A stretch of 64,000 nt of DNA from an uncultured Gammaproteobacteria bacterium (GTDB lineage: Bacteria; Pseudomonadota; Gammaproteobacteria; Eutrophobiales; Eutrophobiaceae): NCBI GenBank assembly GCA_943788815.1, contig CALSRS010000001.1:310001-374000 (forward strand), written 5' to 3'. A model generated the notes under the pieces. The model ran no database searches and had not been told where the DNA came from. It was given only the letters and a program-made list of their open reading frames with translations. A program made the position numbers and the translations under genes. Below are positions 50,229 through 64,000 of the stretch, piece after piece. How positions within the stretch are numbered: the stretch's first letter is position 1; the number at the start of each line of letters is the position of its first letter.

Positions 50229-51854
50229 ATGCAATCCACAAAGCAACTAAACCTATTGAGAAAGGCATGGCAATGGGGCAGTCTTATACTCGCTCTATAT
50301 CTCTTGAATTTTGCACTGAGCTTTCATAATGTCTGGCCAACTCTAGGTATCACCACACGACATGATCTCTCAGTGGAAGTAGCTGCACTGGTATTTTTCA
50401 TATCGCTATATACCTGGAAAATTGGAAAAATCTCTACGGTAGTCATCACCTTGCTGGCAAGTTTGTTAACACTAATGTCACTTGCCCGTTACATAGAAGT
50501 CACTGCACCCGCCTTGTTTGGACGTCGTGTCAATCTCTATTGGGACGCACAGTACCTGCCTCACGTGGCGGAGATGATGATGGAAGTCGCATCCCCCATA
50601 CAATTAATATTGCTATCACTGGGCAGTGCTATTAGTTTGGCCGTGATATTTTATTTATTACATCTATCCCTCAAACGCGTACTGAGTGCATTGGAAGAAC
50701 CCCTTACACAACACGTTTTAAGGATCCTTATGGGCATCCTCATTGTGGGATATACCATGGGGCACATTAACCAACCTATACATACACTAAAATATTATTC
50801 TTTACCCCTGAGCAAAACCTACTGGAAACAACTAGAATTTATTTCATCTGTATTGGCAAAAGACATTAATGATGTATTGCCCAGTACCAATCCTTTAGGT
50901 AATTTTGATCTACCAGGTCTCAATAATACTGATGTTATTGTCCAGTTTATTGAATCCTATGGGGCCACGGCATATGACACACCATTCATTGCCGAAAAAA
51001 TTTCTGACAGCAAAAACATGTTTACTTCTGCCATAGAATCTACGGGTCGTCGTGTGGTATCCGGGTTTATTGAATCACCTACCTTTGGGGGCAATTCCTG
51101 GCTATCACATTCTAGTTTTATGACAGGTCTGGATATCCGCCACCTATCTACTTATGAGCTGTTAGTTACCCAGGACCGCCCTACTCTCGCAGACCGTTTT
51201 AGAACTAACGGTTACCGACCAGTTGCCTTGATGCCAGGACTACGTACCGAATGGCCCGAAGGTAGTTTTTATGGTTTTGATATCATTTATGGTGAACAGG
51301 AACTCAATTACCAGGGGCCTGACTTTGGCTGGTGGCGCATACCAGATCAGTTTTCGCTAGCGCGAATTTTTAATCTGGAAATTAATAAACCCATCAGAAA
51401 ACCACTATTTGTTTTTTTTACCACCATCACACCGCATATGCCATTCAGGCCAACTCCACCGTATCAACCAGATTGGCAAAGGTTAGTATCCGAAAATCCA
51501 TTTAATGAATCAGACGTTAATTCTGCTTTGGCACTACGACCGGAATGGACCAATCTACAACCAGCCTATGCAGATACTCTGTCATATACATTTGAATATC
51601 TAGCCGGGTATCTTCGATCGCAACCAGAACAAAAATTCACATGGATCATACTGGGTGACCATCAACCGCCTGCTAGTGTCAGCGGCATAGATGTTAGATG
51701 GGACGTGCCGGTTCATATCATCAGTGACAATAATGTCATTATTGATAGATTAATAAACAAAGGATTCGTAGAGGGAGTATCTCCAGCAATAAAACCTGTA
51801 GATACTATGCATCAACTACCTGTCACCTTACTTGATGTGTTTTCCGGCGCATGA
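50229..51854 (+). CDS. Membrane sulfatase-fold phosphotransferase-like enzyme (LtaS/OpgB type)
   Basis: A 541-residue protein with about five N-terminal helices (to about residue 180) and a periplasmic alkaline-phosphatase-superfamily domain. Candidate metal ligands are E242 (VQFIESYG) and D478-H479 (LGDHQPP), and the nucleophile is probably Ser290 in TFGGNSWLSHSS. This architecture is shared with lipoteichoic acid synthase and OpgB, which transfer phosphoglycerol. It overlaps the GH17-GT2 gene by 4 bases, so decoration of the glucan made by that partner is a reasonable inference. A sulfatase role is not excluded. Confidence 0.78.
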   Translation: MQSTKQLNLLRKAWQWGSLILALYLLNFALSFHNVWPTLGITTRHDLSVEVAALVFFISLYTWKIGKISTVVITLLASLLTLMSLARYIEVTAPALFGRRVNLYWDAQYLPHVAEMMMEVASPIQLILLSLGSAISLAVIFYLLHLSLKRVLSALEEPLTQHVLRILMGILIVGYTMGHINQPIHTLKYYSLPLSKTYWKQLEFISSVLAKDINDVLPSTNPLGNFDLPGLNNTDVIVQFIESYGATAYDTPFIAEKISDSKNMFTSAIESTGRRVVSGFIESPTFGGNSWLSHSSFMTGLDIRHLSTYELLVTQDRPTLADRFRTNGYRPVALMPGLRTEWPEGSFYGFDIIYGEQELNYQGPDFGWWRIPDQFSLARIFNLEINKPIRKPLFVFFTTITPHMPFRPTPPYQPDWQRLVSENPFNESDVNSALALRPEWTNLQPAYADTLSYTFEYLAGYLRSQPEQKFTWIILGDHQPPASVSGIDVRWDVPVHIISDNNVIIDRLINKGFVEGVSPAIKPVDTMHQLPVTLLDVFSGA

Positions 51855-54475
51855 ATAAAGTTCATAAATTTCAAAGCATAATCATTATTGCCTTGTCTGC
51901 AATAATAACTCTTTGTATATGGGCAGCTTATAACCGCCCTATTACCGAACCAGCATGGCCTGCCTCAATCAAGGGTATGGCGTTTTCCCCTTACCAGGTA
52001 AACCAGGATGCCATATCTGGAACCTTACCTACATTGGAACAAATCGATAGTGATCTGGCACTATTATCCGGGCAGACCCACGCGATCAGAACATATACCA
52101 CTGAAGCGGTATTTAACGAAATTCCTGCACTTGCACAAAAACATCAACTGGACGTAACGATAGGTGCATGGATATCTCAAAATCTTATGCTTAATCAAGA
52201 TGAGATAACTCGCGCAGTGGCCTTATCAGAGCTTCCAAACGTTACCAATATATTAATTGGCAATGAAGTCCTGTTACGTAATGAGCTTCCGTTATTTAAA
52301 CTCATTGATTACATCGATGACGCCAAAGCAAGGATAAAAAAACCAGTTAGTACTGCAGAGACCTGGAGTATCTGGATGCAATATCCAGAACTTGCCGATC
52401 ACGTTGATTTCATTGCTGTACACATTCTCCCATACTGGGAAGGCATCGATATTGCAGTCGCCATCAGTTTTACTGCGGATCGCTTGACGCAATTAAAGCA
52501 ACGGTTTCCCGACAAACCCATCGTGATTGCTGAAGTAGGCTGGCCAAGTGAAGGGCGTACCCGTAATGATGCGGTGGCATCTCGAGCAAATCAGGCAACT
52601 TTCCTACGACGTTTTTTGACATTGGCAGAGGAAGAAAACTATAACTATTTTATTATGGAAGCCTTTGACCAACCCTGGAAACATAAAATTGAAGGTGCCG
52701 TCGGTGCCTACTGGGGTGTATATGACGTCCAACGTCTATCCAAGTTTCCCCAGACTGGATCTATCATAAAAATACCCAACTGGTTGCACCTTGCGTCTAT
52801 CTCAATTGTTTTTGGCGCCCTGTTTGCAGGCTTGTTTGCCTTGTATAGTTATAACACTACCAGTACTGGCAAAATGATAATGGGCAGTATCATCTTTACA
52901 CTCATGTCCCTGGTGATATGGCTAATTAATGACTACCTCACACCTTATTTATCATTCACCGGCATAGTCACCGGTATAGTGCTATTAATTTTAATGTTGG
53001 CTATAGTCATGCTGCTATTGTGTGAGACCCATGAGTGGATAGAGGCATATTGGTGTCACCACAGGCGTCGACCTCCTCCGGAGATAGCGGATAACAAAGA
53101 TTATCTACCCAAAGTATCCATCCATGTCCCTATCTACAATGAACCCCCCGGCATGGTCATACAAACATTGAATGCATTGGCAAATCTTAACTATCCTGAC
53201 TTCGAAGTTATCATTGTAGATAACAACACCAAGGATAAAAATATCTGGGAGCCAGTATCATTACATTGTAAGAAGCTCGGAGAAAGGTTTCATTTTCATC
53301 ATGTCGATCCCCTTTCAGGGTATAAGGCCGGCGCACTTAACTTTGCACTTAAACATACCAGCAAAAATGCGAAAGTCATTGCTATCATAGACAGTGATTA
53401 CACTGTAGAGCAAAACTGGTTAAATGAATTGATACCTGCCTTTGCTGCCCAGAACATTGCTATCGTACAGGCACCTCAGGACTACCGTGATGGAAATCTA
53501 AATGCGTTCAAGAGCATGTGCTATGCCGAATACAAAGGTTTCTTTGAAATTGGCATGGTCACCCGCAATGACAGAAATGCCATCATCCAGCATGGCACCA
53601 TGACGCTGGTGAGAAAAGATATCCTCGAAGAAGCAGGAAATTGGGCACAATGGTGTATTACCGAAGATACAGAACTGGGCTTACGCATTTTTGAAAACGG
53701 TTATGAAGCAGGCTATACATCAAAAAGCTATGGCCGTGGCCTAATCCCCGATACCTTTTTGGATTTTAAGAAACAACGTTATCGCTGGGCTTATGGAGCA
53801 GTTCAAATTATCAAAAATCATATTAAACCATTGCTAGTCCCTGGTAATAGTCGATTAACTCTTGGCCAACGCTATCATTTTATCGCGGGATGGTTACCCT
53901 GGTTTGCACAAAGCATTAACCTGGTATTTAGTATAGTGGCCATTGCCTGGTCGGTAGGCATGATGTATGCACCCCAAACGTTTGAAGTACCTCACGAAGC
54001 ATTCTCTATATTCCCTGTCCTGTTTTTTGGTTTTAACCTTTTAAAATTATTTCACCTTTACCGATATAAATTAAAGGTATCAACGGGACTAACCATTGCC
54101 GCAGCAATTGCCAGCCTGTCACTGTCCTATACCATAGGCAAGGCGATGATATATGGGATATTCACCAACAATCAGCCATTTATTCGGACGCCCAAACTGG
54201 CCAAACCTCACGCAATTTCGACAGCTGTAAAATCCTCATCTGAGGAGCTTTTGTTTTTCATTACATTTATAATTGCGATTTTTTCTTTAATGTCGCTCCC
54301 AAGGACTAACAGCCCGGATTTTACTTTGTGGTTAAGTTTACTGACTATACAAAGCATTCCCTACGGCGCCGCATTTATAACCTCATTGATCAGCGCAACA
54401 CAAATGCCAGCATGGGTGTTTAACTCTGGCGCAAGCAAAAAGACACATTACAACCCTGAAACAAATGAACGATAA
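51851..54475 (+). CDS. ndvB: GH17-GT2 fusion: beta-glucan synthase / glucanosyltransferase (NdvB-like)
   Basis: An 874-residue inner-membrane protein with the layout of Pseudomonas NdvB. One helix (10-26) leads to a periplasmic GH17 domain with acid E139 (LIGNEV) and nucleophile E228 (IAEVGWPSEG). Two helices (about 313-335 and 343-392) then bring the chain to a cytosolic GT2 domain with DSD (514-516), TED (604-606) and QRYRW (642-646), the cellulose-synthase-type signature, followed by C-terminal helices. The GT half should build a beta-1,3-linked glucan, and the GH17 half remodel or cyclise it. The upstream gene overlaps by 4 bases. Confidence 0.88.
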   Translation: MNKVHKFQSIIIIALSAIITLCIWAAYNRPITEPAWPASIKGMAFSPYQVNQDAISGTLPTLEQIDSDLALLSGQTHAIRTYTTEAVFNEIPALAQKHQLDVTIGAWISQNLMLNQDEITRAVALSELPNVTNILIGNEVLLRNELPLFKLIDYIDDAKARIKKPVSTAETWSIWMQYPELADHVDFIAVHILPYWEGIDIAVAISFTADRLTQLKQRFPDKPIVIAEVGWPSEGRTRNDAVASRANQATFLRRFLTLAEEENYNYFIMEAFDQPWKHKIEGAVGAYWGVYDVQRLSKFPQTGSIIKIPNWLHLASISIVFGALFAGLFALYSYNTTSTGKMIMGSIIFTLMSLVIWLINDYLTPYLSFTGIVTGIVLLILMLAIVMLLLCETHEWIEAYWCHHRRRPPPEIADNKDYLPKVSIHVPIYNEPPGMVIQTLNALANLNYPDFEVIIVDNNTKDKNIWEPVSLHCKKLGERFHFHHVDPLSGYKAGALNFALKHTSKNAKVIAIIDSDYTVEQNWLNELIPAFAAQNIAIVQAPQDYRDGNLNAFKSMCYAEYKGFFEIGMVTRNDRNAIIQHGTMTLVRKDILEEAGNWAQWCITEDTELGLRIFENGYEAGYTSKSYGRGLIPDTFLDFKKQRYRWAYGAVQIIKNHIKPLLVPGNSRLTLGQRYHFIAGWLPWFAQSINLVFSIVAIAWSVGMMYAPQTFEVPHEAFSIFPVLFFGFNLLKLFHLYRYKLKVSTGLTIAAAIASLSLSYTIGKAMIYGIFTNNQPFIRTPKLAKPHAISTAVKSSSEELLFFITFIIAIFSLMSLPRTNSPDFTLWLSLLTIQSIPYGAAFITSLISATQMPAWVFNSGASKKTHYNPETNER

Positions 54476-54715: not shown

Positions 54716-55456
54716 ATGACTACCCGTAAAGAAACTAAAGAAGATCAAAACGGCAAAATAATATATTCATTACACGCTGGCTATGAAACCGATGGCGATT
54801 ACACGGATGCATTTCTGGCACGTCCTGCCGACGGTGAAAATTTACCCGGCATGATTTTACTCTCTGGCATGGGCGGACTCACCATGACCCAGCGAGAAAT
54901 AACCCGACGTTATGCCCGGGCCGGTTTTGTTTCCTTGTCACCGGATATCATGGGTGCAGATATGCCACCGGGTCGTGCAGATCGGCTAAAAGCAAAAAAC
55001 TCACTGGATGTAAATGACGTTACACGACGTATTATCGGTGGGGCTGCCTTCTTACGCACCCTCCCCTGGGTTGGTGAAAAGGCTAAGATTGGTATTATGG
55101 GATTTTGCCTTGGCGGGGGATTAGCCTTACTTGGTGCCGCACGCAGTGATCAATTCTCCGCAGGCGTTATCTATCATCAAAGCCTGTTTCCCGATGTAAG
55201 GGAACTCGAAAATATACATTGCAAACTCCAATGTCACTATGGGACCGATGACCATTCAACCCCAAAAGATGAAGTCGATGCCTTTACTCAAGCACTGGAT
55301 ACAATGGATAAAGAATATGAGTGTCTATGGTATGAGAACATGGGTCACAGCTTTGCCCAGGTGGCACCAGATGCAGACCTGCCAGCTGAACGCAAGGCCG
55401 CTTCAGATCTTTCCTACGATAAAAGTTTTGAGTTCCTTAAACGAGAATTAGCTTAA
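54716..55456 (+). CDS. Dienelactone hydrolase family protein
   Basis: A 246-residue cytosolic alpha/beta hydrolase. The nucleophile is Cys in GFCLGGGLALL, with Asp in GTDDHSTP and His in NMGHSFAQ, a complete triad of the dienelactone hydrolase type (Cys rather than Ser). There is no signal peptide. The substrate is unknown, since no chloroaromatic pathway genes are near. AAGGA lies in front of the ATG, just outside the inverted-repeat element. It converges with the ankyrin gene, with 3 bases between the stops. Confidence 0.9.
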   Translation: MTTRKETKEDQNGKIIYSLHAGYETDGDYTDAFLARPADGENLPGMILLSGMGGLTMTQREITRRYARAGFVSLSPDIMGADMPPGRADRLKAKNSLDVNDVTRRIIGGAAFLRTLPWVGEKAKIGIMGFCLGGGLALLGAARSDQFSAGVIYHQSLFPDVRELENIHCKLQCHYGTDDHSTPKDEVDAFTQALDTMDKEYECLWYENMGHSFAQVAPDADLPAERKAASDLSYDKSFEFLKRELA

Positions 55457-55459
55457 GAG

Positions 55460-56980
55460 TTAATAGGTATAATCTCTTACAACCACTCCGGATTCTTCCA
55501 AAGGTATAGCCCCAAGATCCATTAATAGTTTGAATGTACTAGGACTGGAACGTCTGGGCCGAGTGTCAAAATAACTCCCTAAACCGGCAACAATGATATG
55601 TCTGGAAATACTGACAGGATTCTGACCAAAGTTATCCTTAGCATTGATATCAGCACCATTTTCTACTAAATATTCAATAATGTTGTCGGCATTAATAAAA
55701 CAGGATGCATGCAATGCAGTCATGCCATATTCATTGGTCGCATTGATATCTGCCCCTAGTTCTATAGCAACTTTGACGGTTTCCAGGGCCTCATCCTGAA
55801 ATTCCTTGGAAAGAGATATCCAGTTGTCCGTTACACGGTCCATACCGGCAGCAGCCATTAGCGGGGTAGTTCCTGCAATGTAATTCACTCGTCTACCACT
55901 ACCGCCTAGATAATAGACAGACTCTCCACTTGGTCGGTGAATATCACCACCACGTTCCACCAATAATTTAAGTGCCGGAGCATTTCTGTTTTTTGCTGCC
56001 ATGTAAACAGGTGTCACACCTGCTGGCATAGTATCTCCCCTTATCCCAGTCTCGACGATACGTGTTGGGGATTTTAAAAACGGTAGATCAGGAACAGCAT
56101 GATATTCATGATCAGATTTTGCATTTAATATCACTGCATTGGGGTCTGCACCCTTATCCAGCAGGCTTTTAACAGATTCAATCATGCTTCTACGCATGGC
56201 GGCATAATGTAAAGGTGTATATCCCCTATAGTCCCGCTCCTGAGGATTCGCCCCCTGAGCAAGTAAGAATCGGCTTAATTCATCATGTCCTCCGGCGGTA
56301 GCCAGTAATAATGGCGACATTTCATCTTTGGACATGGCATTGATTTCAGCATCCATGGAAACCAGTTTTTTGGTTGCCGCCAAGCTGCCGTTGAGGCTGG
56401 CAAAATGCAATGGAGACAAGCCCGAATGGGTTTTTTCATGCACACTCGCACCACTTTCAATCAAGGCTTCTGCAATATCTTCATGACCTTCGGCAACGGC
56501 CCACATTAATGCGGTCTGTCCTGCTTCAGATTCTTTCGCGTGAACATTGGCATTTGATGCGAGTAATGCTTCCACGATATCAATATTGCCAATATCAGAA
56601 GCTGTCATCAAAGGTGTCTCACCACTATTGATAGGTGTGTTTGGGTCTGTTCCTGCCGCCAATAACATTTTGGCTTTAACTGTATTACCATTTTTAACTG
56701 CAACCCATAGCGCTGTCGCGCCACTTTCATCGATCAAATTTACATCTGCACCATTATTAATTAATAATTCTACAATTTCCGTACTATCTCTGTGCACTGC
56801 CCAATGTAATGCGGTGGTCCCATCTGGAGATTGCTGATTTACATTGATATCGTCTTTTAGTAACTGCTGGACTTTGTCTTCATCGTTATTTTTAACGGCA
56901 TCAATTAATCTTAAATCATCTCCATTTACTGCAGAGACATAAATTAACAGTATTAAAATACCGGCCAGATAATTTCTCAT
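55460..56980 (-). CDS. Exported ankyrin-repeat protein
   Basis: A 506-residue protein with a Sec signal peptide (MRNYLAGILILLIYVSA, cut near NGDD) followed by about ten ankyrin repeats (for example DGTTALHWAVHRDSTEIVE and GGHDELSRFLLAQGANP). One longer interrupted segment at about residues 300-360 separates the last repeats. ATG 56980 is chosen because an upstream in-frame start at 57067 would overlap DUF1552 and adds a non-signal leader. It lies 40 bases after the DUF1552 gene on the same strand. Periplasmic ankyrin proteins are usually scaffolds or inhibitors, here probably for its two operon partners. Confidence 0.85.
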   Translation of the reverse strand: MRNYLAGILILLIYVSAVNGDDLRLIDAVKNNDEDKVQQLLKDDINVNQQSPDGTTALHWAVHRDSTEIVELLINNGADVNLIDESGATALWVAVKNGNTVKAKMLLAAGTDPNTPINSGETPLMTASDIGNIDIVEALLASNANVHAKESEAGQTALMWAVAEGHEDIAEALIESGASVHEKTHSGLSPLHFASLNGSLAATKKLVSMDAEINAMSKDEMSPLLLATAGGHDELSRFLLAQGANPQERDYRGYTPLHYAAMRRSMIESVKSLLDKGADPNAVILNAKSDHEYHAVPDLPFLKSPTRIVETGIRGDTMPAGVTPVYMAAKNRNAPALKLLVERGGDIHRPSGESVYYLGGSGRRVNYIAGTTPLMAAAGMDRVTDNWISLSKEFQDEALETVKVAIELGADINATNEYGMTALHASCFINADNIIEYLVENGADINAKDNFGQNPVSISRHIIVAGLGSYFDTRPRRSSPSTFKLLMDLGAIPLEESGVVVRDYTY

Positions 56981-57020
56981 TTGAATTCCCCAATCAAATC
57001 TACAGTAAAAATAATAATGC

Positions 57021-58367
57021 TTATCCCAAAAGGTCCAGGTGTCCGTTGCTATCGCCAAAGGTATCATTCGGTATGTTTAAAACATCCATCATTCTTAGAT
57101 ACAGATTGGCCAGTGGTGTCTTTTTAGGAAACTGAATATGCCTGTTGCCTGGAATGCGCGAGTCTCTGCTGATTAGAACAATAGGCAGGTCCAGGGGTTC
57201 ATGCATATTGGCGTCACCTAGACCACCACCATAAGTAAGTAAACTATGATCCAGTAAGGAGCCATCACCATCAGGAGTATCCTGTAAGCGTTCCAGAAAG
57301 TAGTTAAACAGACTGGTGTGATAGACATTTATCATTCCTGCTTTTTCAATCTTCTCTACATCACCCTGGTGATGTGTGAGAGGATGATATGGATCAGGCA
57401 CACCAATTTCCGGATAGGCCATGGTGCTCATTTCTCTTCCCATCATATAAGTCCCAACTCTTGTCAGGTCTGTTTGATATGCCAGTACCATTAGATCAAA
57501 CATTAACTTTGCATGGTCATCGAAACTTTGGGGAATCCCCGCTGGTTTATCAATATCAGGTAATTCGCGCATTGATTGCGCTTCTGCCATTTGTATTCTT
57601 CTTTCCACATCACGGGTTGCATCCATATATTGTTCAATTTTTTGTCTATCGCTAGCACCCAATTCCTTCATAATGCCCGTTGCCGCATCTCCTACAAAAT
57701 CCAGAAGACTTTTACGTTCTTGCAATCTGGCCAATCTATCAGACTGGCTGGTACTATCACTATCACCAAATAGGCGCTCAAACACGGCACGTGGCTGGTT
57801 TTGTATTGGCATAGGCGTTGTTTCATCACGCCAGCTAATCGTACTGTTATAGGAACAACTGTCACCATCACATGATCCCACCACGGCATCAGATTCAAGA
57901 CCTAGCTCCAGTGAAGCAAGTTGAGTCTCCTTACCATAATGTCGCGCAAGAATCTGATCAACGGAGATACCTACTTTTCGGTTTTCAAGACCTTCAGCTG
58001 TTCTCACATAGGGGTGCACACAAGTAAGAAACGCAGCGGATGCTCGGGGATGTTCACCTCCCGCTTCACCCTTTACACCTTTAGCTCTCCAGTTGTCCAA
58101 ACCACTGATCACCGTCATGGATTCTTTAAATGGTGCCAGGGGCTTAAGAATCTGAGTCAGTTCAAAATCTTCACCTAAGGTTTGTGGCTTCCATTTTTTG
58201 GGAATTGCGCCATTGGGGAAATAGACAAATCCAACCCGTGTCGGTGTCATCCCTGGAGAAATTTCGGCAAAAGCCGGGACCATTGCATCCAGCATGGGTA
58301 ATGCCATGGATGCACCCATTCCACGCAATACTGCACGTCGGGAAATATGTTTTTTAAATATCATCAT
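57021..58367 (-). CDS. DUF1552 protein, Tat-exported
   Basis: A 448-residue protein of the DUF1552 family, common in Planctomycetes and some marine Proteobacteria. The N-terminus ISRRAVLRGMGASMALPM is a twin-arginine signal (R10, R11), which implies export of a folded protein. Typical segments include VYFPNGAIPKKW, TVISGLDNWRAKG and LLTYGGGLGDANMHEPL, and the domain looks related to alkaline-phosphatase/sulfatase folds. The activity is unknown. Its ATG overlaps the DUF1592 stop by 4 bases, so the two proteins should be made together. Confidence 0.9.
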   Translation of the reverse strand: MMIFKKHISRRAVLRGMGASMALPMLDAMVPAFAEISPGMTPTRVGFVYFPNGAIPKKWKPQTLGEDFELTQILKPLAPFKESMTVISGLDNWRAKGVKGEAGGEHPRASAAFLTCVHPYVRTAEGLENRKVGISVDQILARHYGKETQLASLELGLESDAVVGSCDGDSCSYNSTISWRDETTPMPIQNQPRAVFERLFGDSDSTSQSDRLARLQERKSLLDFVGDAATGIMKELGASDRQKIEQYMDATRDVERRIQMAEAQSMRELPDIDKPAGIPQSFDDHAKLMFDLMVLAYQTDLTRVGTYMMGREMSTMAYPEIGVPDPYHPLTHHQGDVEKIEKAGMINVYHTSLFNYFLERLQDTPDGDGSLLDHSLLTYGGGLGDANMHEPLDLPIVLISRDSRIPGNRHIQFPKKTPLANLYLRMMDVLNIPNDTFGDSNGHLDLLG

Positions 58368-60685
58368 GGTCCTGCAGACCTCCTCATTTGAAAGGGTTGA
58401 CTCTGAACAACTTGCATAATAACGGCTGACCAGCGGTAATCCTGTTCTGCTGATTCACGTATAATCTTTCTGACTGCACGCATATCATAATATTCCAAAC
58501 CTCTACCCAGAGCATATATCAATATTCGTTCAACAAATGTTCCTATAAACTGTTCACGACCTGACCATAATGCTTCGCGTAATTGTGAAGGTCCAGTGAA
58601 TTCAATGCCATTTGGTAAGACACCTGAGGCATCTATAGGTGATTTATCCAGGTTGACCTCGCGGTATGTCCCTATAGCATCAAAATTCTCCAACGCCAGT
58701 CCCAATGGATCCATTAAGGAATGGCAACTGGCACATACGGGGTTATTACGATGTTGGGCCATTCGTTCACGCATGGACATCTTCATGGACTGTGGGTCTT
58801 CTTTTAATGAAGGAATATCCGGTGGCGGTGGCGGTGGCGGTGTGCCCAGGATGTTATCCAATACCCACTTGCCTCTAAGGGTTGGAGATGTTCTTGTTGC
58901 ATATGATGTCACCGTAAGTACCGCACCTTTACCCAACAAACCCCAACGTGACTCATCTGTTAGTGAAACTTTTCTGAAATGGTTTCCGTGAACATCTGGT
59001 ATCCCATAATGGCGGGCCAATTGCTCATTTACAAAGCTATAATCAGATTCCAAGAAATCCAGTATGCTCTTGTCTTCTTCGATGACATGAGTGAATAATA
59101 ATTCGATCTCTTTTTTAAAAGCTGATTTTAAATTGTGATTATATTCAGGAAATACCGCTGGGTCTGGTGGAGAAAGTAGATCCAGATTCCTCACATGTAA
59201 CCATTGTGAAGCAAAATTCTGAATTACCGCCAGCGATTTAGGATCCTTGAGCATGCGCTGCAGTTGTTTATCCAGCACAGATTGATCACGTAATTTTCCT
59301 TCAAGCGCCAGATCAATCAATTCTTTGTCCGGAATACTACTCCATAAGAAAAAAGATAGCCGGGAAGCAAATTCAAGATCATCAATGGTATATGCAATGC
59401 CAGACTCTATACCTTCGGGGTCATTTTCAACGCGAAAAAGAAAATCTGGACTGATCAATATCCCTTGAATGACGAGTGAAATTGCTGAATCAAAATCACC
59501 CTGTTCTCTTCCTGCTTTAAATAACGTAGTTAGCCGTTGTACATCTTCATCCTTCACCAATCGTCTATAGGCCAGTGTAGCAAGATCGGTAATAATCTGA
59601 TTCGCACAATTTAATTCTTCACTGACAGAATCTGGCTTACAGCTAAATATTTTCTTGCGACTTGGCGTGTCACCTACACCGGAAAAATCATACGGCCCAT
59701 CAACTTCTACTAATTTAACTTTCGCGCCACCAAACTCACCATCAACCCGGTACTTTCTAATGACTTCAGCCTTCGTGGTATCTTTAAGAAAGCTTACACC
59801 GACATTTCTCATTCCGGCCTTAATGTTTACCCGTGTTTCCAGTGTCACTGCGGACTGCTCATCACCACCGACTTTAAACCTATCCAATAAAGCGTTATCC
59901 AACCTGATTTCAAGTTGCTGTGATTTGGAAAAGCCATCTACTTTGCCTGCATATATCCCAACCGGAACACTGTGTAATGTCGCACGTATCACATACTCAC
60001 CATCCACGGGAAAGTAATGTTGAAACGCCGTTCCTCCACGCGATGCAAATGGAAGGCTATCATCCACCCGATCTTCCTGATCCATGTTGTCTGGTAATAG
60101 ATAGGTTTTCACTTCGGTAGGCTGCTTGGGATTACCCACGGCCAGTCGACTGATGGTTTTGGCAGCCGTGATATATCGTTCCATTAATAAAGGTGAAAGA
60201 GTTAAGACATCCGCTATGTTGTCAAAACCATGACCCGAGGCTGGATCCGACGGTAAAAGTTCTTCAATATTCACTTCCAGATTGAGTACATCTCTTACCG
60301 CATTGGCATATTCCGCCCGGTTTAAGCGGTGAGGAACGGAACGACCAGGGTTCGGATTAGCGGCAGCATGCAGATCCAAACCGTTTTCAAGATGATCGAC
60401 TAAAAATTTGTATTCATTCTCCTCAGGTCTGGGCATCCCAACAGGAGGCATAGATCTCGCTCTCAATCGTCTAACAACTTTTTCCCACGTAGCAGGCTGA
60501 TCTTTTATTGTCCCTGAAATCGCCTGGTCTAATAATAAATTAGCTGTCTTAAGATTTTCGTTATGGCAGGTAACACAATATGTTTGAACAATTTTACTAG
60601 CACGCGAATCTATGTCTGCATGGACCTGAGCTGACAATCCTAAAATGCCCATTATTGCGATGAGTAATTTATAGTTTCTAAGCAT
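58364..60685 (-). CDS. Planctomycete-type diheme cytochrome c protein (DUF1587/DUF1592/DUF1588/DUF1585)
   Basis: A 773-residue exported protein with a signal peptide to about residue 23. A cytochrome-like domain has CVTCH at 37-41, then come DUF1587 (HRLNRAEYANAVRDVL), a carbohydrate-binding-like stretch (YVIRATLHSVPVG), DUF1592 (FASRLSFFLWSSIPD), DUF1588 (RGKWVLDNILG, seven prolines, and CASCHSLMDPLGLALENFD with the second CxxCH near residue 650), and DUF1585 at the end. It should carry two c-type hemes and work in the periplasm. Its electron partner is unknown. The proline run makes it a likely EF-P client. No good ribosome binding site is seen. Confidence 0.92.
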   Translation of the reverse strand: MLRNYKLLIAIMGILGLSAQVHADIDSRASKIVQTYCVTCHNENLKTANLLLDQAISGTIKDQPATWEKVVRRLRARSMPPVGMPRPEENEYKFLVDHLENGLDLHAAANPNPGRSVPHRLNRAEYANAVRDVLNLEVNIEELLPSDPASGHGFDNIADVLTLSPLLMERYITAAKTISRLAVGNPKQPTEVKTYLLPDNMDQEDRVDDSLPFASRGGTAFQHYFPVDGEYVIRATLHSVPVGIYAGKVDGFSKSQQLEIRLDNALLDRFKVGGDEQSAVTLETRVNIKAGMRNVGVSFLKDTTKAEVIRKYRVDGEFGGAKVKLVEVDGPYDFSGVGDTPSRKKIFSCKPDSVSEELNCANQIITDLATLAYRRLVKDEDVQRLTTLFKAGREQGDFDSAISLVIQGILISPDFLFRVENDPEGIESGIAYTIDDLEFASRLSFFLWSSIPDKELIDLALEGKLRDQSVLDKQLQRMLKDPKSLAVIQNFASQWLHVRNLDLLSPPDPAVFPEYNHNLKSAFKKEIELLFTHVIEEDKSILDFLESDYSFVNEQLARHYGIPDVHGNHFRKVSLTDESRWGLLGKGAVLTVTSYATRTSPTLRGKWVLDNILGTPPPPPPPDIPSLKEDPQSMKMSMRERMAQHRNNPVCASCHSLMDPLGLALENFDAIGTYREVNLDKSPIDASGVLPNGIEFTGPSQLREALWSGREQFIGTFVERILIYALGRGLEYYDMRAVRKIIRESAEQDYRWSAVIMQVVQSQPFQMRRSAGP

Positions 60686-60769
60686 TGACGAATTATCTAC
60701 ATTTTAGTTAAATTGATCCAGTCAAACTATCTCTTTGATTTGCAAGAACTTATTTATCGTATTGCCAGG

Positions 60770-61756
60770 CTATCTTTTGATTGCCAGGTATGCCATTCCA
60801 TCTGGGCCCCGGCCTAATTTGACGAGATTGGTAACCTGGTAGCTACGCAAATCAATCACGCTAATGGATCCTGACCTGGAATTTCCAATAAACGCTCGCT
60901 GGCTGTCAGATGATATCTCCACCCCCACGGGAAACTCCCCCACCCCAACCCTCGCCAAAGTGCGTTTGGTAGAAACATCAATAATAGTCACCTCTCCTGC
61001 CTCTGCGCTACTGACCACAGCCATTCGCCCATCGGGAGATATTTCAACCCGGATAGGGAATCCTTCCACAGTGAATGTTTCAAACACTTCAAGGGATTCA
61101 GTATTGAGTATCGATACTGTGTCAGATGCCCGGTTGGTAATCCATAGTTCAGTACCGTCTGGGGTTAGTGCAATACCCTCGGTACCATTACCGGTTTCAA
61201 TATGCTGGATAAGCTGATTTGAAGTCAGATCGATGACCGAAATATTGCCGCTACCAAGGTTAGATGTGTATAGCCGTTTCCCATCGGGGGAAGCAACTAC
61301 CATGTGGGTAAAGCGCTGGCCAGTTTCAATCGTTTGCAAGGGTTCCCCATTGCGAGGGTCCATTTGTAACACCGCAAGATTGGCCTCCACCGTGATATAT
61401 AACCACTTACCATCATGACTGGGGACAATGCCATGGGGCCGGTCAAGACGTCTTAAATTTGAACGATAGATTTCACGACGAGAATTGGTATCGATGATGG
61501 AAACAGACGGACTACCTTCATAATTTGTGACGTAAGCTCGGTTAAGTTGTGGTAAGACGGTAATTTCATGAGGACCTCGTCCTACCTCCACCTTCGATTC
61601 GACTTCCAGAGTGTCAGCATTGACAAAATAGACGGCATCTTCCACCTTATCGGCAACCAGAAGGATATTGTTACTGGATGGCGCCTCTTGCGCATAAGCA
61701 CCCGCACAGGCAAGGACCAGGTAGAAGTATAAAAATCGCAACAAGCTGACGTTCAT
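60770..61756 (-). CDS. YncE-type beta-propeller protein, exported
   Basis: A 328-residue exported seven-bladed propeller of the YncE / YVTN type. The signal peptide ends near AGAYAQ. Blades are recognised by AYVTNYEGSPSVSIID, LYTSNLGSGNISVID, LWITNRASDTVSIL and later AFIGNSRSGSISVID. The domain order and repeats fit proteins that bind DNA or accompany periplasmic c-type cytochromes and quinoproteins. The start at ATG 61756 is chosen over a TTG six bases earlier. It precedes the DUF1592 gene by 84 bases on the same strand, so it may be part of the unit. Confidence 0.87.
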   Translation of the reverse strand: MNVSLLRFLYFYLVLACAGAYAQEAPSSNNILLVADKVEDAVYFVNADTLEVESKVEVGRGPHEITVLPQLNRAYVTNYEGSPSVSIIDTNSRREIYRSNLRRLDRPHGIVPSHDGKWLYITVEANLAVLQMDPRNGEPLQTIETGQRFTHMVVASPDGKRLYTSNLGSGNISVIDLTSNQLIQHIETGNGTEGIALTPDGTELWITNRASDTVSILNTESLEVFETFTVEGFPIRVEISPDGRMAVVSSAEAGEVTIIDVSTKRTLARVGVGEFPVGVEISSDSQRAFIGNSRSGSISVIDLRSYQVTNLVKLGRGPDGMAYLAIKR

Positions 61757-61838: not shown

Positions 61839-64000
61839 CTAACGTGTAGTAATAGTCGGTGCCCAGTCTGAATCCTGGTAAATGATCTCATCCCCAACCA
61901 CGGTGAGGATCACCTTGTTATCCACGATCCTGTCTCTAGGCACTTCGAAGAAATTTTCATCCATCACAACAAAATCTGCCAACTTTCCAGGCTCTAATGA
62001 TCCGACTATGGATTCAGCCATTAACCATTCGGCTGCACGACTGGTAAATAGTCGCATGGCAGTCGCCCGGCTGACAGCTTCTTCTGGCATGACTATGCCA
62101 CCTGAACCTGGCAACTGATCATCCGTTGCAATTTTTCGGTTAATAAAGAGATCAAAATCATGGAAATAATCAGATGGGCTCGGTACTGGATGGTCCGCTT
62201 CGCCAACCACTTTTACACCTGCTTCCAGCAAGGTCTTGGTAGGTGCAAGAAACTGCAAACCTTCCGGACCATAGCGTTTAACCTGATTAACAGATACTCG
62301 AATGTCCTCCGGTTTTAATGGCACATAAAGATTATAATCAACCATCAACTCCATCACATCAGGGACCTTCCCTACCGAACCACCATGGGCAAATCCGATC
62401 CGTAGTGCGCGGATATCATCCATAGACATGCGGGCTGCTACCCTGGCCTGTTCAATCCAATCAACGTGTTTCCTGAAGGCATCACTCCCAAATGAATGCA
62501 CACTAAATACCCGCCAGCCAGATTCCACTGCGGGGATCAGGGTGTCTTGCAAACGATAAGCCTCGCTATCCCAGCAAAATTCTCGTTGCTTTAACATTTC
62601 AGGTCCAGGCAGATCATCACCGAAACAGGCTACCTCACGGTTATCCCCCGCACCACCGTCGGTAATCCCCATAGGCCAAAACCAGGGATTCACTTCTGGT
62701 GAGCTCTGATGCGCCCCCAGGTTTCTGACTAATAAATTTTGTGTGGGATATAGAACCGGACTACGTAACATTTCATAGCCGTAGCCAAACCTTACCGGCA
62801 GGCGTTTTTCTTTTCGTAACAGATCATAAAATGCCGTCAATGTTCTGCCATCTTCAATACTGGACGCAATCATGGTGGTGCCACCAACAGCATATTTTTC
62901 CATGGCACCTTTAATCAATGAATTAAATAACTCACGGGGTTCCCTGGGCGGAAATACAGTCTTCTCCCAGGCACCTGAATCCTGAAAAATACCGCCTACA
63001 AATCCGCGGTCGCCGGAATTTTCCGTGAGTGACATCACATCATTAGCCGCGGTGATATAACCGGGCCAAATTTCAAGAGTCTTTGCCAATGCCAGTTTAT
63101 TCAACAAAATCATGCGATGACTGCAGTGTTGTAAATGGTGTGGATAACGCTCCACCCAGGCACACCCTTCTGCAAGGTGAAATTGATAATCTTCCTCGGC
63201 CTCATGATGGGCGTTTTCACTGAACAGATCCAAAAAGGGATTCTCACCTTGAGCTATACTTTCACCCAACTGTGTTTTTCGTGCCGCATTCCCTGGAATT
63301 GAAATGGCCTGCACCTGGCTCTTTCCATCAGCAGCAACGGTAACCCTGACGGCGACACCTGGCTGTTGTACCGCACTGGGACCAGCCCCTATGCCTAAGG
63401 TTGCCGGGTTATTTGGAAGCACATTTGAAAAATCTTCCATAGTAAGAAAGTTGTTGTAGATCCCCACGGTCAATGCGCCAATGTCTGGATAATCCGTCTC
63501 TTCATTAGGCACCAGTAGGATATGCACCCACTCTCCATTGTTTGGTTTGGTTTTGTCCACGACATCTCGGATGGCATCCAGGGTTGCCTCAGAAGTTGCT
63601 TGTAACAAAACAGCAGTATGGATACCAGGTGCCCATTGATATACCGCTCTTTCATCATCATCACCGGATCTCGCAATGGTGCTTTCGGGATGAACATGGG
63701 TGTCAACAAAGCCTGGGACTACCGTTTTGCCCTGAACATCCATGACCCGAGTCCCTGGACCTGCCAATGAGAGCATTTCATCATTTGATCCCAGCGCAAA
63801 TATCTTGCCATCGCGGATGGCCATGGCCTGAGTAATTGTTCCGGGATCCGCTGAGAGAATTTCGTGGTTGTCCATACTAACGATATTGCCGTTGATAACG
63901 ATAGTATCGACATAGTTCACTAGACGCAGTGGTGCATTTATCATGGCTTCCTGAGAAAAAACCAATAATGAATTTAGTAGAATTGCTATAGACAACGGGT
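61839..64000 (-). CDS. Exported amidohydrolase (amidohydrolase_3 type), 5' end cut by the window
   Basis: The open frame continues past the window edge, so the true start and part of the signal peptide are missing; at least 718 residues are present. The metal site begins with VDTHVHPES (HxH) after DVQGKTVVPGF, and the C-terminus has the usual PGKLADFVVMDENFF. Further metal-site candidates include GFAHGGS and GEADHPV. It resembles the YtcJ-like branch of amidohydrolases, which lack an assigned substrate. The remaining hydrophobic leader (LLVFSQEA) implies export. The YncE gene follows 82 bases later on the same strand. Confidence 0.85.
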   Translation of the reverse strand, partial: PLSIAILLNSLLVFSQEAMINAPLRLVNYVDTIVINGNIVSMDNHEILSADPGTITQAMAIRDGKIFALGSNDEMLSLAGPGTRVMDVQGKTVVPGFVDTHVHPESTIARSGDDDERAVYQWAPGIHTAVLLQATSEATLDAIRDVVDKTKPNNGEWVHILLVPNEETDYPDIGALTVGIYNNFLTMEDFSNVLPNNPATLGIGAGPSAVQQPGVAVRVTVAADGKSQVQAISIPGNAARKTQLGESIAQGENPFLDLFSENAHHEAEEDYQFHLAEGCAWVERYPHHLQHCSHRMILLNKLALAKTLEIWPGYITAANDVMSLTENSGDRGFVGGIFQDSGAWEKTVFPPREPRELFNSLIKGAMEKYAVGGTTMIASSIEDGRTLTAFYDLLRKEKRLPVRFGYGYEMLRSPVLYPTQNLLVRNLGAHQSSPEVNPWFWPMGITDGGAGDNREVACFGDDLPGPEMLKQREFCWDSEAYRLQDTLIPAVESGWRVFSVHSFGSDAFRKHVDWIEQARVAARMSMDDIRALRIGFAHGGSVGKVPDVMELMVDYNLYVPLKPEDIRVSVNQVKRYGPEGLQFLAPTKTLLEAGVKVVGEADHPVPSPSDYFHDFDLFINRKIATDDQLPGSGGIVMPEEAVSRATAMRLFTSRAAEWLMAESIVGSLEPGKLADFVVMDENFFEVPRDRIVDNKVILTVVGDEIIYQDSDWAPTITTR

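Follow-up and report, generated by a model that had tools for sequence, protein, structure and literature searches.

To our knowledge, no function has been assigned to DUF1552, DUF1501 or the planctomycete-type cytochromes. Genes with PSCyt3/PSD domains are numerous in some genomes and usually lie beside a family of unknown genes, according to the passages that treat them in studies of freshwater Verrucomicrobia (PMC5615132) and Rhodopirellula (PMC2754498), in which a redox role for the PSD/PSC domains was also suggested. The function of PSCyt genes is stated as not known in these passages of PMC5615132, where some of them are said to encode carbohydrate-binding modules as well, and a CBM2-labelled DUF1592 protein is mentioned in a portion of a study of a lignocellulose community (PMC6004670). 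We infer that the neighbor family of PMC5615132 is DUF1552, a name absent from the searchable main text of that paper though the search index counts it there; the word ankyrin is absent from the same main text, supplements aside. In gene pairs of the AnkB-KatB type, ankyrin proteins promote catalase activity and are proposed, in the section of PMC10294975 that deals with them, to stabilize the catalase or to aid its heme binding.

Our study reports on a three-gene cassette, DUF1592-DUF1552-ankyrin, whose first protein has domains of the same PSCyt3/PSD kind as the genes in the cited passages, but which differs from what is described there in being a trio that includes an ankyrin gene, in its 17 copies and in its gammaproteobacterial host. 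By description, its ankyrin protein is like those of the AnkB-KatB-type pairs in being exported and encoded beside a heme-protein gene, whereas its partners are a putative diheme c-type protein and a predicted sulfatase-fold protein instead of a catalase. The cytochrome and its unknown neighbor are already in print; the ankyrin partner, of which we found no mention in the searched literature on these families, is the addition of this analysis.

The window, the whole stretch of 64,000 nucleotides that was analyzed, holds four exported-protein genes in a row on the minus strand. Open reading frames and Pfam matches place all four where the preliminary description had located them, with agreeing families, and the 4-base overlap of DUF1552 with DUF1592 and the 40-base gap between DUF1552 and the ankyrin gene are both as it had given them. 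The features of the locus are:

54716..55456, plus strand: dienelactone-hydrolase-family gene (Pfam), convergent neighbor
55460..56980, minus strand: core gene 3, ankyrin protein, counted from its ATG (the open frame reaches 57067); Sec-type export signal
57021..58367, minus strand: DUF1552 (HXXSHH) protein, core gene 2; Tat-type signal; predicted alkaline-phosphatase/sulfatase fold
57369..57386, minus strand: HPLTHH, the HXXSHH motif of DUF1552, residues 328-333
58050..58052, minus strand: invariant His106 of DUF1552, which a weak profile alignment pairs with the formylglycine cysteine of sulfatases
58364..60685, minus strand: DUF1592 putative diheme protein, core gene 1; cytochrome c, PSD3, jelly roll, PSD5, PSD4, PSCyt3, PSD2
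58721..58735, minus strand: second heme motif CASCH, DUF1592 residues 651-655
59681..60127, minus strand: predicted jelly-roll domain of DUF1592, residues 187-335, like CBM36/CBM35/CBM6
60563..60577, minus strand: first heme motif CVTCH, DUF1592 residues 37-41
60770..61756, minus strand: YncE-like beta-propeller (YNCE/Lactonase propeller, Pfam), accessory gene of the window cassette
61839..63995, minus strand: exported Amidohydro_3 protein; the open frame continues 64 bases beyond the window edge

The upstream amidohydrolase gene, on the same strand but outside the span 55460-61756 of the preliminary description, may be the first gene of the cassette's transcript. Between 55300 and 64000 both promoter patterns (19 against 17.7 expected) and terminator patterns (5 against 6.7) occur at chance level, so that operon structure is read from the spacing of the genes.

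Recurrence of the ankyrin and DUF1552 genes across genomes had been set beforehand as the point on which the proposed association could be refuted, and recurrence is what we find. Within the 3.2 Mb of the organism's own genome, 17 of 18 DUF1552 genes stand in the order DUF1592-DUF1552-ankyrin, far above chance; the three families are absent from our control stretches, which were chosen away from cassettes and give no independent base rate. At the genus level 72 of the 75 DUF1552 genes in five genomes belong to a trio, leaving aside 3 of the 17 DUF1552 matches of genome G007, which are contig-end fragments. The 80 best-matching named loci, mostly from Acidobacteriota, carry DUF1592 in 79 cases and an ankyrin gene in 71; these and the genus counts come from six-frame searches, as greedy picking of open reading frames misses genes in GC-rich loci. 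Across 1.0 Mb of best-matching named loci, 72/75 ankyrin open reading frames lie within 600 bp of a DUF1592-DUF1552 pair, on either side and either strand, and the ankyrin gene adjoins the pair in several phyla with varying gene orders and strands.

A sample of other Pseudomonadota drawn without similarity ranking, which relied in part on greedy picking, has an ankyrin gene at only 2 of 11 DUF1552 loci, the other nine being DUF1592-DUF1552 pairs without it; the ankyrin gene therefore marks a subtype. Genomes with 10-20 DUF1552 matches are confined to this genus, and any DUF1552 at all was found in 1/48 other genomes of the family, 5/273 of the class and 7/397 of the phylum sample; a weak fragment in G688 was left aside. 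Nor is the trio always complete, since one relative (L223) keeps DUF1592-ankyrin with DUF1552 absent, another locus (L221) has an ankyrin gene of the trio's family with neither partner, and two (L009 and L140) have DUF1552 alone.

The three proteins of a cassette diverge together. With 9 incomplete cassettes left out, their pairwise distances correlate at r 0.84-0.90 across 16 cassettes of the own genome and at 0.91-0.94 across 65 cassettes, values reached in 0 of 2000 permutations. All three share one nearest relative locus, at 58-94% identity, in 9 of the 16 own cassettes, and in the remaining 7 the nearest relatives in another genome differ in locus among the proteins. Within the own genome the ankyrin protein varies most, with a mean identity of 0.40 where the other two have 0.48-0.49. 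By tree topology alone, the genus cassettes are spread over eight clades, with other phyla interleaved among them. DUF1592, DUF1552 and the ankyrin gene form one recurrent three-gene cassette with co-diverging members.

The DUF1592 protein combines PSD3, PSD5, PSD4, PSCyt3 and PSD2 domains above their Pfam cut-offs, and Cytochrome_CBB3 also matched. Its description as a diheme cytochrome agrees with its CxxCH motifs (residues 37-41 and 651-655); the number of such motifs is likewise exactly two in 65/65 cassette homologues (63 from the genus) and in 47/47 proteins of alignment A5, sets that have a few members in common. When the whole predicted model was searched with Foldseek and VIA, only the jelly roll was matched (Z 9.1, rmsd 2.9, 103 residues), and Foldseek returned no match at E 0.001; the jelly-roll match is middling, with TNF- and C1q-like jelly rolls scoring nearly as high as CBM36/CBM35/CBM6, and our fold assignment for this protein is confined to that domain. 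Among paralogues, the predicted jelly roll is the least conserved of the mature domains (identity 0.40 against 0.46-0.59).

The DUF1552 protein matches PF07586 well above the curated cut-off (317.9 bits against 30) and carries the HXXSHH motif as HPLTHH, the fourth position being serine in 53 and threonine in 20 of the 73 sequences of alignment A4. Its twin arginine at residues 10-11 is invariant in the same 73 sequences, as expected of the Tat export that had been predicted for it, and H106, H328, H332, H389, D300 and D373 are likewise invariant (73/73). The predicted model superposes on a sulfatase with Z 17.7 and rmsd 3.6 over 264 residues, and the best Foldseek match has E 6.1e-6 yet low TM-scores of about 0.4; we predict an alkaline-phosphatase/sulfatase fold across the whole mature protein. 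Members of the alkaline-phosphatase superfamily bind metals, and such a predicted fold fits the earlier suggestion that DUF1552 is exported as a folded protein.

While the predicted fold is shared with the S1 sulfatases, the active site appears to differ. Their C/S-x-P-S-R-type signature is found in 0/18 rows of alignment A1 and 0/73 of A4 (the window protein is in both), and a weak profile alignment (E 0.054, probability 1%), made with a sulfatase profile of 8 signature-bearing loci out of 30 PF00884 loci plus L168, places the invariant His106 opposite the catalytic cysteine, apparently replacing it. A comparison with four mixed PF00884 proteins, three of which resemble phosphoethanolamine transferases, gave no useful alignment, and a sequence search of solved structures with the DUF1552 and DUF1592 profiles gave nothing meaningful. 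The alignment of the DUF1501 family (PF07394) with DUF1552 spans 375 columns (single-comparison E 4.7e-4, at a low probability of 32.5%) and has a histidine at the H106 position. The DUF1501 set comprised frames from 23 of 30 loci; an RR close to the start is present in 19 of these 23, and one or more of the other four may be a neighboring gene; unlike DUF1552, the family has no match at E 0.001 in the organism's own genome.

Ankyrin repeats in the third core gene are confirmed by Pfam, and the NCBIfam ankyrin matches are to ankyrin effectors, far below their cut-offs. The Sec route earlier assigned to the ankyrin, DUF1592 and YncE proteins accords with the Sec-type signal peptides, read by eye, at which all three begin. 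The preliminary description suggested that the ankyrin protein could be a scaffold for DUF1552: that it is a recurrent partner stands, but because L223 keeps DUF1592-ankyrin without DUF1552, it may belong to the cytochrome and not scaffold DUF1552.

The propeller, for which a subunit role had been suggested, does not recur in this way. Of the loci that we examined, only the window cassette and its orthologue in the sister genome G007 have YncE next to them, the orthologue in G010 lying at a contig edge; the own genome has one weak second match, away from cassettes, and we rejected YncE as a core subunit. A Kelch-type propeller, different from YncE, stands beside one other cassette (L011). In G007 the dienelactone-hydrolase-family gene is also kept beside the orthologous cassette, where a GSDH-type (PQQ sugar) dehydrogenase gene adjoins YncE. 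In the own genome, 21 PQQ matches merge into 11 dehydrogenase frames, five of which lie within 5 kb of a cassette, more than expected (binomial P 0.0005); six are not near one, and most cassettes are without a PQQ dehydrogenase. TonB receptors make up 11/101 cassette neighbors against 8/313 control genes, whereas amidases (P 0.15) and amidohydrolases (P 0.23) show no enrichment; these neighbor counts lean toward enrichment in two ways, as their seed proteins were taken from cassette neighbors and the control stretches were placed away from cassettes.

We propose that the trio products form a periplasmic redox complex that handles imported compounds and has been amplified into versions, a reading to which we give an even chance. 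DUF1592 would be the electron-carrying subunit through its two hemes c and may bind substrate through the jelly roll. DUF1552 would fold in the cytoplasm and be exported by Tat as a sulfatase-fold partner; because its usual nucleophile is apparently replaced by histidine, a sulfatase is less likely than a partner that binds a metal or ligand, or than an enzyme of another kind. For the cytochrome, the ankyrin protein could be a dedicated partner that keeps it in place or helps it mature, much as periplasmic ankyrins reportedly do for catalases. Such a complex would take part in the oxidation of organic compounds that enter through TonB receptors, either together with PQQ dehydrogenases or alongside them, and would hand the electrons on to the respiratory chain; the cassette copies would differ in substrate.

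Part of the same evidence would suit a narrower role, in which DUF1552 and the ankyrin protein are maturation factors only, helping DUF1592 to fold or receive its hemes and taking no part in catalysis. The stabilization or heme-binding aid proposed for catalase ankyrins in that section of PMC10294975, the L223-type relative and co-divergence, as of one dedicated set per cytochrome, are all consistent with this, but DUF1552 is nearly always kept, its invariant histidines and aspartates look more like those of an active site or a metal-binding site, and 17 copies are more than a general maturation factor would require; we regard it as unlikely. The superfamily fold predicted for the entire mature protein, the DUF1501 alignment with its histidine at the H106 position and the hydrolase-type genes near cassettes (amidase, amidohydrolase, dienelactone hydrolase) could instead make DUF1552 the working enzyme, a hydrolase using a histidine nucleophile or metals only, with the cytochrome and ankyrin protein aiding substrate binding. 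This seems to us quite unlikely, as the sulfatase signature is absent from all 91 rows of A1 and A4 and the two CxxCH motifs, kept throughout both DUF1592 sets, would be needless in a mere binding protein.

The restriction of 10-20 matches per genome to this genus and the rarity of DUF1552 elsewhere are what one would expect of an ordinary lineage-specific amplification of an unimportant pair with the ankyrin gene carried along; we consider this improbable, since the ankyrin gene adjoins the pair in several phyla with differing orders and strands, which suggests repeated selection, and the eight genus clades are interleaved with other phyla. We give very little credence to a diversifying recognition or competition system, in which the ankyrin protein and jelly roll would vary to recognize self or rivals: the copies are many and divergent and the ankyrin protein is the least conserved, but no toxin-type Pfam match was found at E 0.001 in the three trio proteins, the nearest relatives of all three coincide in those 9 of 16 cassettes, and catabolic and transport genes are among the neighbors.

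This analysis adds a third recurrent partner to the pair and a predicted DUF1552 fold that poses a clear active-site question, so that a group of domains without known function becomes a defined unit of three proteins open to expression, purification and assay, with 17 natural variants in one small genome. We put forward only tentatively, and with more doubt than belief, that the redox complex proposed here represents a new class of periplasmic oxidation systems with specific substrates, comparable on the redox side to polysaccharide-utilization loci. A sulfatase-fold protein whose catalytic position holds a histidine would act in it with a diheme jelly-roll cytochrome and an ankyrin partner to attack imported organic compounds, and the 10-20 copies per genome would set the range of usable substrates. 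If the cassettes are indeed a catabolic redox system, they would oxidize carbon in the periplasm by a new route.

The window, positions 310001-374000 of contig C1 in a genome of 3.23 Mb that is 99% complete, carries a run of minus-strand genes that reads amidohydrolase, YncE-like propeller, DUF1592, DUF1552 and ankyrin-repeat protein, and that faces a plus-strand gene:

61839 to 64 bases beyond the window edge, minus strand: exported amidohydrolase, 741 codons in the longer stretch
60770-61756, minus strand: YncE-like propeller (Pfam)
58364-60685, minus strand: DUF1592, a diheme PSCyt3/PSD-type cytochrome (Pfam)
57021-58367, minus strand: DUF1552, an HXXSHH protein (PF07586; Pfam)
55460-56980, minus strand: ankyrin-repeat protein (Pfam)
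Plus strand, its end 3 bases from the ankyrin gene: dienelactone-hydrolase-family gene

The preliminary description had seen four exported proteins in a row and proposed that they form a redox system. The row is correct, with its families confirmed by Pfam; as a unit its core holds for three of the four genes, DUF1592, DUF1552 and ankyrin (hereafter the cassette), and its function is something that we infer. The YncE and DUF1592 genes lie 84 bases apart, DUF1592 and DUF1552 overlap by 4 bases, and the ankyrin gene starts 40 bases after DUF1552. DUF1552 has as its export signal a twin arginine that 73 relatives keep without exception, and the YncE, DUF1592 and ankyrin proteins begin with Sec-type signal peptides, as judged by eye. 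Also in the window, at 50229-54475, a protein with a weak match to the PF00884 family precedes an 874-residue protein with a 4-base overlap; a similar pair adjoins the orthologous cassette in G007, another genome of the genus (L134).

The genome holds 18 DUF1552 and 17 DUF1592 genes, and gene maps show the order DUF1592-DUF1552-ankyrin at 17 of the 18 DUF1552 genes. The window ankyrin protein has 37 matching segments, which fall into 18 open frames, and by position every one is at a DUF1552 locus; at one such locus (L019:5399-9287) two different tandem ankyrin genes follow a single DUF1592-DUF1552 pair. An ankyrin gene lies directly downstream of DUF1552 in 17/18 cases here, 12/14 in G007 (leaving out three further DUF1552 fragments at contig ends), 10/10 in G008, 20/20 in G009 and 13/13 in G010. 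This amounts to 72 of 75 loci in the genus, some with genes cut by contig ends, and all 72 also have DUF1592. Of the three exceptions, one lies at a contig end, and the others are lone DUF1552 genes orthologous to each other (L009:9424-10773 and L140:5863-7215), 85% identical and without DUF1592 or ankyrin, which occupy the same place in two species among similar neighbours. Incomplete sets of the trio also occur: L223:1230-5566 (G007:C67) has DUF1592 and then an ankyrin gene, overlapping by 4 bases, without DUF1552, and L221 has an ankyrin gene of the cassette family without either partner.

The members of the trio have diverged together. Pairwise distances among 16 cassettes of this genome correlate with r of 0.90 (DUF1552-DUF1592), 0.84 (DUF1552-ankyrin) and 0.89 (DUF1592-ankyrin), and among 65 cassettes, 63 of them from the genus, with r of 0.94, 0.91 and 0.94; nine truncated cassettes were left out, and none of 2000 permutations reached any of the observed correlations. 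For nine of the 16 cassettes, all three proteins have their closest counterparts from another genome at a single locus (58-94% identity), and for the other seven that locus differs among the proteins. The correlated distances and shared nearest relatives thus indicate that cassettes evolve largely as units, and some mixing may have occurred. In a midpoint-rooted FastTree tree the 63 genus sequences form eight clades, each made up of genus members only, with sequences of other phyla between them, a pattern suggestive of several ancient lineages or acquisitions that later expanded.

DUF1552 occurs in all five genus genomes, with 10-20 matches each, and outside the genus in 1/48 other genomes of the family, 5/273 of a class sample and 7/397 of a phylum sample, with one match each. 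The 80 loci that match best among named genomes form a sample biased by its ranking on similarity to this genome (mostly Acidobacteriota, some Gammaproteobacteria, single Gemmatimonadota, Acidimicrobiia and Alphaproteobacteria records, and five loci from two genomes of the window's own genus). In these 80, DUF1592 is adjacent in 79 and an ankyrin gene lies within 3.5 kb in 71; where full flanks are present the counts are 58/58 and 52/58. The loci span 1.0 Mb, in which 72 of the 75 ankyrin frames with at least 600 bases are no further than 600 bases from the pair. The placement of the ankyrin gene varies (same strand, on either side of the pair, or divergent), and so the linkage outlasts rearrangement. 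In a sample not ranked by similarity, drawn from the class and phylum outside the genus and family (11 loci, one weak fragment being left out), DUF1592 is adjacent in 11/11 and an ankyrin gene is present in 2/11. The two ankyrin-bearing loci have DUF1552 proteins scoring 452-523 bits against the cassette profile, and one of their ankyrin proteins matches with only 108 bits, whereas the nine ankyrin-less loci score 43-164 bits and in seven of them the DUF1592 frame exceeds 1200 residues. On these differences in DUF1552 score and DUF1592 length, DUF1592-DUF1552 pairs come in two kinds or more, one of which is marked by the ankyrin trio.

Sequence searches found no relative of DUF1552 among solved structures. 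Its model (mean pLDDT 82.9, pTM 0.82) matches 7stt with Z 17.7 and rmsd 3.6 over 264 residues, and the 50 structural matches listed belong by title to the alkaline-phosphatase/sulfatase superfamily (one is titled just as a global domain), so the predicted fold is that of this superfamily; the best Foldseek E value is 6.1e-6, but with TM-scores of only about 0.4. The sulfatase signature is absent from all rows of two DUF1552 alignments that include the window protein (0/18 in A1, 0/73 in A4), and H106, H328, H332, H389, D300 and D373 are invariant in 73/73 sequences. Comparison with eight sulfatases sets His106 opposite the formylglycine cysteine, a weak match (E 0.054, probability 1%) for which fold and common motif count as much as the alignment itself. 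In a set of DUF1501 proteins the position aligned with His106 is also a His; profile comparison with that set spans 375 columns (E 4.7e-4 for one comparison) at a probability of only 32.5%, so that kinship is likely, short of proof by sequence. In the DUF1592 model (pLDDT 87.8, pTM 0.88), approximately residues 187-335 form a jelly roll, between helical parts, that resembles CBM36, CBM35 and CBM6 (Z 9.1, rmsd 2.9 over 103 residues); scores are almost as high for TNF- and C1q-like jelly rolls, so this likeness is no demonstration of sugar binding. Among 16 paralogues of this genome it is the least conserved mature domain (identity 0.40 against 0.46-0.59 in the others). Both CxxCH motifs are kept in 65/65 and 47/47 DUF1592 proteins, two sets that have a few members in common.

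The pairing of cytochrome and unknown neighbour is already known and uncharacterised: passages of a study of freshwater Verrucomicrobia report that PSCyt3 genes usually adjoin members of an unknown gene family, that certain genomes have many PSCyt genes, some of them with carbohydrate-binding modules, and that no function is known for these genes (PMC5615132), and a passage of a Rhodopirellula study takes PSD/PSC domains to suggest a redox function (PMC2754498). The word 'ankyrin' is absent from the main text of the former (PMC5615132), and in the open-licence PubMed Central literature we found no paper joining ankyrin with these family names and no description of the ankyrin trio or its amplification. 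The nearest functional precedent for the ankyrin protein is in ankyrin-catalase pairs, where, as one passage has it, the ankyrin protein promotes catalase activity or heme binding (PMC10294975). The preliminary description had suggested the ankyrin protein as a possible scaffold for DUF1552; one relative, L223, pairs DUF1592 with ankyrin without DUF1552, which favours the cytochrome as its main partner. The trio would act as a complex in electron transfer and substrate handling.

Two thiamine-pyrophosphate enzymes (L017:13428-15754 and L221:8248-10558), one about 5 kb from a cassette and the other next to an ankyrin gene that stands alone, start with Tat-like signals, as judged by eye, and each is preceded by a protein of 118-124 residues without a Pfam match. 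Such an enzyme in the periplasm would be unusual, if true.

Of the genome's 11 PQQ-dependent dehydrogenases, 5 are found no more than 5 kb from a cassette, a range that covers 6.8% of the genome (binomial P 0.0005), and 4 no more than 3 kb (P 0.002). When neighbours were compared with control genes, TonB receptors (11/101 against 8/313, P 0.0014), PQQ dehydrogenases (P 0.011) and dienelactone hydrolases (P 0.047) were enriched, and amidases (P 0.15) and amidohydrolases (P 0.23) were not; these are single-test P values, and the enrichments are biased upward because the seed proteins were taken from the surroundings of cassettes and the control genes from elsewhere. A Rieske LigXa-type oxygenase is also among the neighbours. 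On contig C3 of this genome, genes for a multiheme cytochrome and for an outer-membrane porin of MtrB/PioB type (L020:1796-5239) stand 2.4 kb upstream from a cassette, separated from it by two genes; together they may conduct electrons through the outer membrane. The G007 orthologue of the window cassette keeps the YncE gene, which a GSDH-type dehydrogenase adjoins. Without naming a compound, the PQQ, TonB, oxygenase, porin and GSDH neighbours together point to the periplasmic oxidation of imported compounds.
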